Virus record (IMG/VR): IMGVR_UViG_3300050821_002644
Coordinates: 1-54,206 of that record
DNA length: 54,206 nt
Strand: one strand, 5' to 3'
Source of the DNA: a virus
Shown here: piece after piece, positions 6,662 through 54,206 of the stretch
Layout of the letters: each line of letters starts with the position of its first letter
How positions within the stretch are numbered: the stretch's first letter is position 1
The notes under the pieces: generated by a model
What the model was told of the DNA's origin: nothing
The model's input: only the letters and a program-made list of their open reading frames with translations
The model's database searches: none
Translations under genes and position numbers: made by a program

Positions 6662-6691
6662 TTGTGCAACCGAGTGGTTCTGCGATATAAT
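6662..6691 (+). promoter_or_regulatory. Promoter of the capsid operon
   Basis: TTGTGC (6662-6667) and TATAAT (6686-6691) lie 18 bases apart. The segment TATAATCGGAAGTATG matches the first promoter closely. Here the conserved ATG at 6699 is followed at once by TAG, then GGAG and the true ATG at 6713. The transcript would therefore begin at or next to a one-codon start-stop reading frame. Confidence 0.8.
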
Positions 6692-6712: not shown

Positions 6713-7003
6713 ATGTCAGTCTACAGCCCGAGTGGATCAGGAAACGTCCACGTCGACCGAGTTATGGGAGGTGGGAAGAAAGTGGCAGGCAAAAAGCCAG
6801 CAGCCAAGAAGGGTATGGGATTCGCGGCTGCTGCGAAGTCAGCCGGCCGTAGCTCGGGTCAAGGGCCAAAGGCTGGCGCTGCGATGGTAGCGGCCGCTTC
6901 TCGCAAGGCTTCCCCCGCCGCCAAGAAGGCCAACCCCAACCTGAAGAAGGTGGCAGCCAAGTCTGCTAAGGCTAAGGTTGGTACGAAGGGCGGGAAGAAG
7001 TGA
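6713..7003 (+). CDS. Lys/Ala-rich basic protein with capsid-like N-terminus
   Basis: 96 residues. Residues 1-17 read MSVYSPSGSGNVHVDRV, nearly the start of the major capsid protein (MAVYNPSGSGNVHIDVV). The rest is a histone H1-like low-complexity tail of Lys, Ala, Gly and Pro (KKVAGKKPAAKKG, then NLKKVAAKSAKAK), expected to be unstructured and to bind DNA. TAGGAG lies upstream of the ATG and the gene is first after its own promoter. The stop overlaps the protease start (GTGA). I infer a DNA-condensing or capsid-interior protein whose N-terminus copies a capsid segment. The biochemical role is not established. Confidence 0.7.
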   Translation: MSVYSPSGSGNVHVDRVMGGGKKVAGKKPAAKKGMGFAAAAKSAGRSSGQGPKAGAAMVAAASRKASPAAKKANPNLKKVAAKSAKAKVGTKGGKK

Positions 7004-8154
7004 GTCACCAGTTCGGGTACTGGATCGAACTCCAGGGTACCAAGTTCGGCGAGGAAGAGGAGCAGTGGATTCATGCACTGCCTCTCGGCGAGTACGAACA
7101 CCCGGTGTACGGGAAGATGAAGTTCGATCCTGACACTGTCAAGCAGTACGCTGACAACGTCAACAGCAAGGTTCGTGGCATCGATCTCGACATCGACTAC
7201 GACCACAAGGAGAAGACCTCCAAGGCAGCTGGCTGGGTCAAGGAAGCCAAAGTTCAGCCTGACGGTCTTCACCTGCGAGTGAAGTGGACGCCGGAAGGCG
7301 CGAAGGCTGTCAAGGACGGTGAGTACCGTTACTTCAGCCCCGAGTTCCAGGATGCTTGGAAAGACGCGCACGGCGTCGAACACAAGAACGTCCTCTTCGG
7401 AGGCGCACTGACCAATCGGCCCTATCTCAAGGACCTGATGCCGGTCAACCTGTCCGAGATCAACGAACCTCCCAAGGAAGAAGGAGACGGGATGGACCCA
7501 GCACTGCTCCGTCAGCTGCTCGGTCTCGAAGCCAACGCCACGAACGACCAGGTCACGGCGAAGATTGCCGAGCTGCAGAACGGGCCTACGCCGCCGAGTC
7601 CGCCGGCGCCTCCCGCTCCTCCCGCTCCAGTCGAGCCCGCGAAGGACGAGCCGGTTCTTACCGGTGCTGCCCTGACTGAAGCGTTCGCCAAGATGCTGGA
7701 TGAGCACCCGATGTTCAAGGCGCTCAAGGAGTCCGTTGAGATTACTCAGCGGAACCAGCAGCTGGCTGAGGTTCGAGGTCGGCTCGAGAAGGTGACCAAC
7801 AAGCAGGGTGGTCGTGCCTTCGTACTTCCTCCGTCGGTGATCGATGCCGTCGCTGAGGCCAGCGTGAGCGGCGACCCTGTCAAGCTGTCCGAGGGCATGG
7901 TGACCGCCTTCGAGCAGTTCGCACGGACAGGCATGGTCGAGCTCGGCGAGCGTGGACGAGTCAACGGCGGGTCCAACGAGAAGGATGCCACTCAGGTGCT
8001 CGCCGAGCGTGTGCAGGCCAAGATGGCTTCGCATCTCCAGGCGACCGGGAAGCCTCTGCACCAGACCGAAGCGATTCGGATGGTGTGTGCTGAGGACCCC
8101 GAGCTCTACATGAGCTACCGCGAGGACTCCTACGCTGGCGGGAAGGGAGAGTAA
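7000..8154 (+). CDS. Prohead protease/scaffold (Mu I-like)
   Basis: The N-terminal 155 residues match the Mu I-type head maturation protease pattern: EQWIHALPLGEYEHP, DIDYDHKEK (likely catalytic His), EYRYFSPEF (likely catalytic Ser) and GGALTNRPYL. The rest (about 165-384) is a Glu/Lys-rich helical segment with a Pro-rich linker (PPSPPAPPAPPAP), as in fused internal scaffolds. It would cleave scaffold and perhaps capsid N-termini during maturation. GTG start at 7000 in a GTGA overlap. Followed directly by decoration and capsid genes, as usual for this module. Confidence 0.85.
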   Translation: MSHQFGYWIELQGTKFGEEEEQWIHALPLGEYEHPVYGKMKFDPDTVKQYADNVNSKVRGIDLDIDYDHKEKTSKAAGWVKEAKVQPDGLHLRVKWTPEGAKAVKDGEYRYFSPEFQDAWKDAHGVEHKNVLFGGALTNRPYLKDLMPVNLSEINEPPKEEGDGMDPALLRQLLGLEANATNDQVTAKIAELQNGPTPPSPPAPPAPPAPVEPAKDEPVLTGAALTEAFAKMLDEHPMFKALKESVEITQRNQQLAEVRGRLEKVTNKQGGRAFVLPPSVIDAVAEASVSGDPVKLSEGMVTAFEQFARTGMVELGERGRVNGGSNEKDATQVLAERVQAKMASHLQATGKPLHQTEAIRMVCAEDPELYMSYREDSYAGGKGE

Positions 8155-8157
8155 CCC

Positions 8158-8619
8158 ATGCCGGGTATGGATCACATTCTCAGCAAGGGCTTCCTCGCCA
8201 CGGGGTCGTCCGCCTACACCTTCGGTCAGGTTGTCCAGCAGGTCAACCTCACTACTGGCCCGCTCGCCACGATCAACCAGGCGCAGTGCCAGATCTGTCC
8301 GACGTCGGCAGGTACTGCAGGTGCTAACTCCGTCGTGCTCGGTGTCTGCCAGGAGAACCTCGACCTCGTCAAGGTTCAGACTGGTAAGGCGATCATTGGC
8401 GTTGCGATCGAAGGCAACTGCAAGGTTGTCTGGGACGGTACGGGTACTCCTGCTGTCGGCTCGTACATCGTACCTTCTGGAACTGTCGCTGGCCAGGTCA
8501 AGTTCGTGAGCAGCGTCACTACGTTCCAGGGATTCGCAGTGGTCGGTACGCCTCTGACGCTCCCTGCAGCGGCGAACGACTTCTTCGACATCTCGCTGGC
8601 AATCGGCGACCGAATCTGA
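8158..8619 (+). CDS. Head decoration protein (DUF2190-like)
   Basis: 153 residues, low charge, rich in Gly, Val and Thr. Segments such as VVLGVCQENLDLVKVQTGKA and GNCKVVWDGTGTPAVGSYIV follow the strand pattern of small capsid-cement proteins of the DUF2190 type. It lies between the protease and the major capsid gene, the standard place for decoration proteins. Family membership is by pattern only. Confidence 0.7.
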   Translation: MPGMDHILSKGFLATGSSAYTFGQVVQQVNLTTGPLATINQAQCQICPTSAGTAGANSVVLGVCQENLDLVKVQTGKAIIGVAIEGNCKVVWDGTGTPAVGSYIVPSGTVAGQVKFVSSVTTFQGFAVVGTPLTLPAAANDFFDISLAIGDRI

Positions 8620-8636
8620 GAGGAGGATAGTCCAGC

Positions 8637-9758
8637 ATGGCAGTTTACAACCCTTCTGGTTCGGGCAACGTCCACATTGATGTTGTTCTCACCAACATCT
8701 CGGTCGCATGGCCGAATGAGGGTCTCGTCGGTAACGTCCTCTTCCCCGCGGTGCCGGTTCGGAAGCAGTCCGACAAGTACTACATCTACCAGGGCCGTGA
8801 AGGCTGGTACCCCGCGCTCGACGACGCTCGCGCGCCTGGTGCTGAGGCCAACGAGGTGCCGGGTCTCACCGTGTCGGTCGGTTCGTACTACGCTCAGGAG
8901 CACGCACTCCAGATCGCAGTGACCGACGAAGAGCGGGAGAACGCCGACGCTCCGCTGAGCCCCGACGTCGACGGTGCGGAGATGCTCGCGTCCAGGATCG
9001 CTCTGGGCAAGGAGTACCGCATCTACAACCTGGTCACGACTGCTGCGAACTTCAACAGCGGCCTGACTGCTCAGCCTGGTACTACCGTGGGCTTCGGTCC
9101 GCAGTGGGACAACTACGCCAACAGCACACCGATCCGAGACATTCGGACCGCATACCGGTTGGTGCACGCGATCAGCTTCCTGAACCCCAACCAGGCAATC
9201 ATCCCCTACCGAGTGATGTCGGCTCTGGAAGACAACCAGGACTTCATCGAGCGGATCAAGTACACCGAGCGTGCGATCCTGACGCCGGACCTGGTCGCCT
9301 CGCTGATGAACCTGAACAGCGTGGTTGTTCCGGGCTTCGGCATCGCGACCAACAACCCTGGGCAGACGCTGGCGCTCAGCTACCTCTGGAACAAGGAGGT
9401 GCTGCTTGCCTACAGCCCAGGACGGCCGGGACTCAAGGTTCCTGCCTTCGCCTACCAGTTCACCTGGGGCTTCGGCAACGGTGGCGCTGGTGGCCTCGGC
9501 TTTGGGTCTGGAGCCTTCAGCGGTCAGGGAATCCCCAACGGCGGTTCCGGAACCACGCTCAACCCTGCTCAGGGCACTGGAACTGACAACGCGCTCGGTG
9601 GTGGCATCGTCGACCGCTGGCGTGAAGAGCGTCGGGCCTCCGACGTGATTCGGTTCCGGCAGCGCTACGACCTCGAGTTCATCGGGCTCGACTCGAACAA
9701 CAAGTCCATCTGCGGCTTCCTGTTCACCAACGTCCTCAGCAACGCCTTCATCGGTTAG
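8637..9758 (+). CDS. Major capsid protein
   Basis: 373 residues, the expected size for an HK97-fold capsid subunit without a delta domain. Typical segments are GNVLFPAVPVRKQSDKYYIY, an AEANEVPG loop, VTDEERENAD and a long spine helix; residues 278-328 form a Gly-rich loop. Position after the protease and decoration genes and the strong GAGGAGG support the call. The first 17 residues are almost repeated at the start of the basic protein at 6713, so this N-arm may be a recognised assembly signal. Confidence 0.9.
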   Translation: MAVYNPSGSGNVHIDVVLTNISVAWPNEGLVGNVLFPAVPVRKQSDKYYIYQGREGWYPALDDARAPGAEANEVPGLTVSVGSYYAQEHALQIAVTDEERENADAPLSPDVDGAEMLASRIALGKEYRIYNLVTTAANFNSGLTAQPGTTVGFGPQWDNYANSTPIRDIRTAYRLVHAISFLNPNQAIIPYRVMSALEDNQDFIERIKYTERAILTPDLVASLMNLNSVVVPGFGIATNNPGQTLALSYLWNKEVLLAYSPGRPGLKVPAFAYQFTWGFGNGGAGGLGFGSGAFSGQGIPNGGSGTTLNPAQGTGTDNALGGGIVDRWREERRASDVIRFRQRYDLEFIGLDSNNKSICGFLFTNVLSNAFIG

Positions 9759-24292: not shown

Positions 24293-26674
24293 TCACAATT
24301 CGCCCCAGTTCTCGCCTCGGGTAATGTCGACGTCGATCTTGACGAAGTCGCCTACGACAGCTCGACCTGATCTAACCATGTACGTGCGAAGCATTGCAGC
24401 TACTTGATCTGCATTGTCCTTATGGCATTCGACCATGATGCTGTCGTGAACGAGATTGCGTACCCATCCAATCCCCTTCAGTGCGGGGCGAAGCCACGTG
24501 AAGGCTTGAAGGCAGATGTCCGAGGCGGTGCTCTGGGGCAAGAAGGCCAATGCTTCATTCATTACCTCGTGCCTGTTCTCGTTGGTGATGAGGTAGAACC
24601 GACGGTGCCTACCGAACACTGTAATGAGGTCTTTGCCATCGAGGACAGCGCGACGTGTCTCTTCGCGGAACTCGACGATGTTGGGGATTACTGCGAAGAA
24701 GGCCGCCATTGCTCTCTGAGCTTCCGAGATACTGAGATCATGCTCCTCGGCGATCGATTTGGCTTCACGGCCATAGCCGAGTCCGTAGAAGTAGGCCTTG
24801 ACTCGGATCCGGAGCTCTTTGAGGGCTGCCTTGCTGAGTCCGGCCACGTCACCGTAGAGGACTGGAGTGAGCTCGTCGAATAGGTCACGGCTAGGGTCAT
24901 TGAAGATCTCGGCAAGATAAGACTCTTGAGCCAACCAGCAAAGGATTCGGGCTTCGATTTGACTATAGTCGGCCTGAACGAATACGTTGTCGGGGTGTAC
25001 GACCTTGAACTGACGGCGTAGCGAGGAGAGTCGTGGGATGTTTTGAAGGTTCGGGTTACGTGAACTGAGTCGACCTGTCGTCGTCCCATGAAGAAGGAAG
25101 GTCGAGAATACTCGACCTCGATAGCAACGTTCTCGTATGCCTTTGACGTAGGTACCATATGCTTTAGCCTCAATACGATGTTCTTGCAAGATGGTTAGGA
25201 AGTCGTAGTACTCGCCCCAAGGCTCTTTGCACTTGTCAATCAGGAGAGCAATGACATCCTTGTCGGTGCAAGGTCGATACTCTCCCTTCTGGTTCCTCTT
25301 CTTAGGAACGACGACCTTGAAGCGATTCGTTAGGACGTCGACAATCTGCATCGGTGAGTTGGGATTGAAGATGGGTCGGCCGGTAGTGACTGCCATATCC
25401 TTGCGGAGGAACTCAAGCCGCCGCGTGTAGAAAGATGCCAGCTGTGCGTTGTACTCCAGGTCCACGCCGATTCCGTTGAGCTCCGGATACATGAGTTCGT
25501 TGGATGCACGGACCAGAAAATCGTGTAGTGCACGCAAGCCAGCTTCCTGATCAAGTAGCCGACTGAACAGCTTCCACAAGAGGTACGTAGCGTGGCAGTC
25601 GAAGGCGTTGTACTTGTACAGGATGTCACGTGGAATTGTACCGTAACCGTGGCCAGGCCGAAGATAGCGCTTGATCTCATCGTCGTACTTCGGTGACCCT
25701 AGCAGCTCGACAGCGTTGTACTTCAGTCCGTGTATACCTCGCCGTTCATCCAATACGTACGAGGCCAGCATTGTATCGAACCAAAGACGTACGGGTCCGA
25801 ACTTCTTGGCGATGAGTCCCTTGAAATCGAACTTGCCGTTCTGAGCAACGATTCGATTGTGCCTACACAGATACTTTCCGAGTGCGGCGACGACATCAGG
25901 ATCGTTAGAGGCATTCTCACCAAACACACACACCTTGCCTTCGGCGTATCCGATTCCCACACAGAGAAGGTGATGGCGCGCGGCTTGTTCAAACGAGACG
26001 TCTTTGTCGACGTCAGTTTCAATATCCAGGGTGATGGGAGTCCATGGTAGCTCAGCAATGGCTCGCAGAGCTGACTCACGGTCGTCCACGACAACGAATA
26101 CAGGTTCGTACCACACGAGGTCCGCACTGAACAGCTTCCCTATGTCGTTGACGATTGAGGGGAAGAAACCGTCGCCTTTTGGCCGCAGACATGCTGCTGG
26201 GTGGAAAGTAGGTATGACCTGAAACTTACCGTCAACCGACGGCCGCGGGGGTCCGACTCGGAGTTTAGTGATACCCTCTGAAGTTCCCAGCAGCGATCGG
26301 GCCGCCGAATTACCGAGAGCGACAACATTGTCAACTCCTCGGTCTTCAAGCTCTGCAAACAGACGGGGCCGACATGCCGACATTGCTGTTGCGGAAGGCG
26401 TAGCATTGTCAGTGGGTCGACAAAGGCAGGCGTTGGTGAGGAAGGTTTTGCTTCTGTCGATGTGGTAGTGGTCGAAGACTTTGTCAAGTAGCTTTCCCGA
26501 GGCCCCCACAAAAGGCTGTCCACGGCGAGCTTCATTTGCTCCCGGCGCTTCTCCCACCACAGACAGAGACGCATAGCTGGGTCCACAACTTGGTACAAAT
26601 CGCCCAATTTCATACAGGTCGCACTCCTCACATTTAGCCAGTGGATGCTTGCGCTTGACTTCACTGTCCACCAT
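24293..26674 (-). CDS. polA: Uracil-DNA glycosylase / DNA polymerase I fusion
   Basis: 793 residues with two enzymes in one chain. Residues 1-205 match family 4-type uracil-DNA glycosylases: KCEECDLY cysteines, VVGEAPGANEARRGQPFVG, TNACLCRP and TFHPAACLR. Residues about 215-400 are a 3'-5' exonuclease with LDIETDVDK, NGKFDFKGL and YNAFDCHAT. The polymerase shows motif A (QADYSQIEARIL), motif B (RIRVKAYFYGLGYG) and motif C (VHDSIMVECH). All key residues seem present. It would replicate phage DNA and scan for uracil. It overlaps the DpdA gene by 14 bases. Confidence 0.92.
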   Translation of the reverse strand: MVDSEVKRKHPLAKCEECDLYEIGRFVPSCGPSYASLSVVGEAPGANEARRGQPFVGASGKLLDKVFDHYHIDRSKTFLTNACLCRPTDNATPSATAMSACRPRLFAELEDRGVDNVVALGNSAARSLLGTSEGITKLRVGPPRPSVDGKFQVIPTFHPAACLRPKGDGFFPSIVNDIGKLFSADLVWYEPVFVVVDDRESALRAIAELPWTPITLDIETDVDKDVSFEQAARHHLLCVGIGYAEGKVCVFGENASNDPDVVAALGKYLCRHNRIVAQNGKFDFKGLIAKKFGPVRLWFDTMLASYVLDERRGIHGLKYNAVELLGSPKYDDEIKRYLRPGHGYGTIPRDILYKYNAFDCHATYLLWKLFSRLLDQEAGLRALHDFLVRASNELMYPELNGIGVDLEYNAQLASFYTRRLEFLRKDMAVTTGRPIFNPNSPMQIVDVLTNRFKVVVPKKRNQKGEYRPCTDKDVIALLIDKCKEPWGEYYDFLTILQEHRIEAKAYGTYVKGIRERCYRGRVFSTFLLHGTTTGRLSSRNPNLQNIPRLSSLRRQFKVVHPDNVFVQADYSQIEARILCWLAQESYLAEIFNDPSRDLFDELTPVLYGDVAGLSKAALKELRIRVKAYFYGLGYGREAKSIAEEHDLSISEAQRAMAAFFAVIPNIVEFREETRRAVLDGKDLITVFGRHRRFYLITNENRHEVMNEALAFLPQSTASDICLQAFTWLRPALKGIGWVRNLVHDSIMVECHKDNADQVAAMLRTYMVRSGRAVVGDFVKIDVDITRGENWGEL

Positions 26675-54039: not shown

Positions 54040-54206
54040 AATCTAATGAAGGCTTGCCTCATCCCACTATTTAGTTTTCAAGTATCAATTTTTTATAAAT
54101 ATTTAATTATTATTATTTTTTTATTTATTTTTTTTTTTTTGTTCTAACTATATTATAATAAAAGTTTTCAAGATCCTCTAGACCCCTGGGACTCAGACCT
54201 TGCCTA
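54040..54206. repeat. Right direct terminal repeat
   Basis: Repeats 1-164 with three more T in the long T-run. See the left copy. The last bases (TTGCCTA) match the end of the left copy exactly. Confidence 0.9.

Follow-up and report, generated by a model that had tools for sequence, protein, structure and literature searches.

The window, meaning the whole stretch of viral DNA that was analysed, is 54,206 bases long and holds the two genes compared in an earlier sequence-only reading: a small open reading frame (ORF) at 6713–7003 and a capsid gene at 8637–9758. The gene order is terminase (starting at 541), portal (1851), further ORFs, small protein (6713), Mu-like prohead protease (7000), a 153-residue protein (8158) and major capsid protein (MCP; 8637); profile searches group the MCP gene with those for terminase, portal and protease. 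The small gene, conserved in relatives, lies on the plus strand, as do all features of the locus described below, and encodes a 96-residue protein with a pI of 11.5 and a net charge of +21. Its start is unambiguous because a TAA stop immediately precedes the ATG. The protein divides into an N-terminal peptide that copies the start of the MCP (codons 1–18, 6713–6766), a variable Gly/Lys-rich linker (residues 19–32, 6767–6808), a core module that is predicted to be helical (residues 33–80, 6809–6952; KGMGFxAA...ASPAAKxANPNLKKV) and a variable basic tail (residues 81–96, 6953–7000).

The neighbouring gene (7000–8154) encodes a prohead protease related to Mu gpI (PF10123, E = 1.4e-27, 97.6 bits against a curated cut-off of 25.2; phrog_328), and the long C-terminal part of its product is likely to act as a scaffold. 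No family match was found for the 153-residue protein (8158–8619). Its position between protease and MCP, and the annotation of the gene preceding the MCP in Arthrobacter phage Ottawa as a head fiber protein, make it a candidate decoration or head-fibre protein. The MCP (8637–9758; phrog_1005, E = 2.3e-57) has an HK97 fold, with 3bjq as best structural match to its model (VIA-align Z = 24.9); many other phage capsids and also encapsulins match it structurally. Its codons 1–18 (8637–8690) carry the shared N-arm peptide. Elsewhere in the window, on the minus strand (24293–26674), a family A DNA polymerase is fused to an N-terminal uracil-DNA glycosylase domain (Pfam UDG, residues 34–166).

A TATAAT box resembling a promoter −10 element (6686–6691) precedes the ATG of the small gene by 21 nt. 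Of 21 non-redundant relatives, 20 have the same hexamer 11–30 nt ahead of the start, and Shine-Dalgarno sequences lie between the two. A sigma-70 promoter scan did not list the box at 6686–6691, and a good −35 element is absent, so that the box is supported by conservation rather than by promoter score. At the other end of the gene, its stop and the first codon of the protease overlap (GTGA), as they do in most relatives; with the TATAAT box, this places the small gene at the head of the protease and capsid unit. Over the whole window TATAAT occurs 11 times (4.3 expected). Boxes cluster near both record ends (110–227 and 54152–54159), two of them as overlapping copies on both strands, and these are possibly promoters around the genome ends.

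The sequence-only reading had reported that 13 of the first 17 residues are shared by the small protein and the MCP, and direct comparison bears this out: MSVYSPSGSGNVHVDRV (6713) and MAVYNPSGSGNVHIDVV (8637) are identical at 13/17 positions and co-linear from residue 1. To place this likeness against background, we scored the first 20 MCP residues against every other six-frame ORF, locus by locus (BLOSUM62, local alignment). In the window, the small protein scored 75 and the runner-up ORF 36; in relatives with the pair, scores were 62–79 and the best other ORF in any locus reached at most 38. A second peptide-bearing ORF was therefore found neither in the window nor in the other loci, leaving one tagged protein per genome. 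The same test of the MCP N-terminus in Arthrobacter phages Ottawa and Wheelbite and Microbacterium phage ValentiniPuff returned no second copy (scores ≤38).

We compared the two copies codon by codon in 20 genomes (15 codons, pooled). Pooled pS was 0.75, which means that silent sites are saturated, as between unrelated codons, and pN was 0.22; the silent differences seen in the original pair thus extend to its relatives. DNA identity of the copies within genomes was not above the between-genome level (P = 0.34). Together with silent-site saturation, this means that neither recent duplication nor gene conversion accounts for the match. Along the small protein, pN/pS was lowest in the peptide (0.15) and rose through the core (0.30) and linker (0.57) to the tail (0.84). 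All 62 MCPs and all 21 small proteins compared have G8, H13 and D15, and Y4 and P6 are nearly invariant. Selection on the peptide, as claimed in the earlier reading, is thus well supported by its low pN/pS, its saturated silent sites and the constraint on its residues. That the same residues are constrained in both proteins is what one shared binding site would require. At the amino-acid level, the small-protein peptide also tracked the MCP of its own genome (P = 0.009, permutation test uncorrected for relatedness), a result that is suggestive only.

Beyond the peptide, the sequence-only reading saw a histone H1-like tail. The Lys/Ala-rich composition agrees with that description, but residues 33–80 form a conserved, predicted helical module that matches no Pfam, PHROG or NCBIfam family, and searches of the small protein as a whole against the same three collections gave no family match either. 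Against Pfam, the window's protein had no match up to E = 0.1, PF07432 included, and the small proteins of 21 relatives gave only chance-level matches to other family models. AlphaFold2 placed helices at residues 35–48, 52–64, 68–73 and 75–88 after a disordered N-terminus, at low confidence (mean pLDDT 62). Across relatives the net charge stayed between +19 and +26 although linker and tail vary freely; charge, therefore, and not sequence, is what is kept in these parts.

A profile built here found the core module (about 48 residues) without the peptide in other phages. It forms a separate small protein in four loci (L079, L095, L150 and L241), with stand-alone versions of about 55–60 residues in freshwater phages, and longer basic proteins of L030 and L035, encoded directly before the protease, end in it. 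These long proteins (L030:2073-3215 and L035:2618-3334) share a motif, H-x-FA[TS]STIPR-x-DG, that is absent from the window's protein and is perhaps a different linear tag. Basic or Lys-rich ORFs also lie between portal and protease in L046 (3061-3339), L050 (3238-3366), L054 (2982-3389) and L064 (2859-3293), some of which have the segment HARNALARVAQxGTPEEK in common. Among 84,980 bacterial and archaeal genomes, one contig carried the core alone, in a Jatrophihabitans MAG; this contig is phage-like (core module at L241:1919-2158), a hint that some members of the family infect actinobacteria.

Among relatives, every phage whose MCP is at least 73% identical and whose DNA spans the site carries the pair; L001, L011, L018 and L021, in which the DNA starts too near the MCP, were left out of this count. 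Two loci with MCPs only about 48% identical have it as well: L088 (MSVYNPTGSGDVHVDRVMS against its own MCP, VSAYNPSGGGNVHVDQIMS) and L225 (SVYNPTGSGNVHTDKVIS against its own MCP, PAYNPSGGGNVHVDKILS). The search of related phages proposed in the earlier reading thus recovered peptide-sharing pairs, and the free divergence of the two N-termini by which that reading could have been refuted is not what is seen. In L100 the same small protein is encoded upstream of the terminase gene, on a contig from which the MCP is absent, and has therefore survived rearrangement. Many related phages, L027, L028, L032 and L036 among them, have neither peptide protein nor core at the site, so the function is dispensable or met otherwise; in L046, L050, L079 and L150 this position is taken by other Lys-rich small proteins. 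Searches with tblastn of the small protein and the stand-alone core against 50,697 annotated phages gave no match, and hence no cultured relative. The phages carrying the pair are a family of soil phages.

The peptide and the basic part behind it do not always travel together. In L023 and L024 the peptide precedes a different Lys-rich tail and the core is absent. In the MCP tree, the peptide protein falls in two separate clades, with core-only relatives near each. In the core tree, a single clade of peptide-bearing cores was rejected (p-AU = 0.005) and well-supported branches force at least three changes, the details being soft with an alignment of only 48 columns. Gain, loss or transfer has thus coupled the peptide to cores, or uncoupled it from them, more than once. 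Such behaviour, with the N-terminal peptide constant and the basic part behind it exchangeable, is that of an address tag.

What the tag might address is suggested by the MCP itself. Residues 1–28 have a pLDDT below 50 in the monomer model, and an arm that is disordered in the monomer yet conserved suggests partner binding. In the procapsids of 80alpha, P22 and phi29, the N-arm touches the scaffold on the inner side (PMC12749128, PMC9965877). A second protein with the same arm could use either pocket, on the scaffold or on the shell. From these observations we infer an internal location, a docking partner and DNA contact for the small protein, and we lean, if only slightly, towards its being a strongly basic, probably DNA-contacting cargo of the capsid interior, recruited during assembly by mimicry of the MCP N-arm. 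This capsid-directed reading, already raised from the sequence alone, is the best supported by the comparisons above: the peptide is kept where the module is swapped or lost, the charge is conserved and the capsid unit starts with this gene. The different Lys-rich small proteins that some relatives have at this position also favour it.

Under the favoured mechanism, the small gene would be expressed at the head of the capsid unit, its translation coupled to that of the prohead protease. The N-terminal 18 residues of the small protein would dock, during assembly, in a pocket normally filled by the MCP N-arm. The likeliest docking partner would be the scaffold part of the protease gene product, inside the prohead, or else a neighbouring MCP subunit. 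Many copies of the small protein would thereby enter the prohead, and their Lys-rich module and tail would neutralise or organise the incoming DNA there, or leave with it at ejection. In a bolder form, which we offer tentatively and think possible rather than probable, N-arm mimicry would be a modular loading code in which unrelated basic cargo is addressed to the prohead interior by fusion to the phage's own MCP N-arm. Such fusions would have arisen or been reshuffled more than once, given that peptide-bearing cores do not group together and that the peptide is found in two distinct clades of the MCP tree.

Alternatively, the shared N-terminus might be a signal that the prohead protease recognises or cleaves, a propeptide removed from both proteins at maturation. 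In phage T4, the capsid-targeting sequence is clipped by gp21. The overlap of the small gene with the protease gene would suit such a role, as would the part that the T4 sequence of the internal proteins plays in encapsidation (PMC3012670). We nevertheless think a protease signal unlikely. The likeness of the two proteins stops at residue 18, after which the small protein continues with MG-GGK and the MCPs with LTNIS, with no common scissile motif, and the invariant G8, H13 and D15 lie inside the peptide and not at its border.

The small protein could instead regulate assembly, competing with the MCP N-arm for the scaffold or the MCP and so tuning nucleation, shell size or MCP solubility. There is a precedent in CpmB of SaPI1, which shares a short capsid-binding motif with the 80alpha scaffold and acts by competition (PMC5644958), and a position before protease and MCP suits an assembly factor. 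However, CpmB is encoded by a parasite whereas the small protein is the phage's own conserved gene, and competition alone leaves the strong conserved charge (+19 to +26) and DNA-binding-like composition unexplained; we rate a purely regulatory role slightly lower than cleavage. Action outside the virion, for example in condensing host or phage DNA in the cell, with the peptide tying the protein to capsids or MCP for another reason, would fit the DNA-condensing activity of Lys/Ala-rich proteins of such composition, for instance Chlamydia Hc1 (cited in PMC12619734), and the presence of the core module alone in other phages. It accounts neither for the conservation of an MCP-like peptide nor for co-transcription with capsid genes, and seems to us more doubtful again. 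If the peptide were a passive relic, left by gene conversion between the two genes or by a recent duplication of the 5' end of the capsid gene, the co-linearity of the two N-termini from residue 1 would be explained, but this reading is ruled out by silent-site saturation, by within-genome DNA identity no higher than between genomes and by the strongest purifying selection in the small protein falling on the peptide.

As a proposed capsid cargo addressed by the N-arm peptide, the small protein would resemble the T4 internal proteins in function. The T4 capsid-targeting tag is common to several T4 proteins and, to our knowledge, is not a copy of the MCP N-terminus. In IPI, IPII, IPIII and Alt, this short conserved N-terminal tag loads diverse proteins into the prohead core (PMC3012670). 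The small protein is alike in its short conserved N-terminal tag (pN/pS 0.15 against 0.30–0.84 in its other parts), in a core that is swapped or lost and in the location of its gene in the head region. However, several proteins of one phage are tagged in T4, and here there is one per genome, whose tag is the N-arm of its own MCP. Because several tagged proteins are not found, we do not place the small protein among T4-type internal proteins.

Other systems share parts of the arrangement. SaPI1 CpmB is likewise an accessory protein with a short motif homologous to another assembly protein and directed to the same binding site (PMC5644958), although CpmB mimics the scaffold C-terminus and the small protein, encoded by the phage itself, the capsid N-arm. 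Encapsulin cargo-loading peptides are likewise short and linear, as proposed here for loading into an HK97-fold shell, but involve no phage assembly or DNA; the shell gene here adjoins terminase, portal and protease genes, which is not the arrangement of an encapsulin operon. We know of no encapsulin cargo peptide that copies the shell protein's own terminus. The moraphage histone H1-like proteins (PF07432) are Lys/Ala-rich, and genome compaction has been proposed for them (PMC12619734). They are similar to the small protein in composition, but the latter has no Pfam match and its core is a different helical module. A search of the open-access full-text literature found no earlier account in which another protein carries a copy of the MCP N-arm, and an accessory protein bearing the capsid's own N-arm is, in that literature, undescribed.

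The finding names a previously undescribed helical module with members in several phage groups. Only in a few model phages is it understood how small internal proteins are selected for uptake into HK97-fold proheads. A tag equal to the capsid N-arm points to a binding pocket, reducing the question to a short peptide and to H13 and D15, and a capsid-derived tag may be a simple route to load foreign proteins into phage heads.
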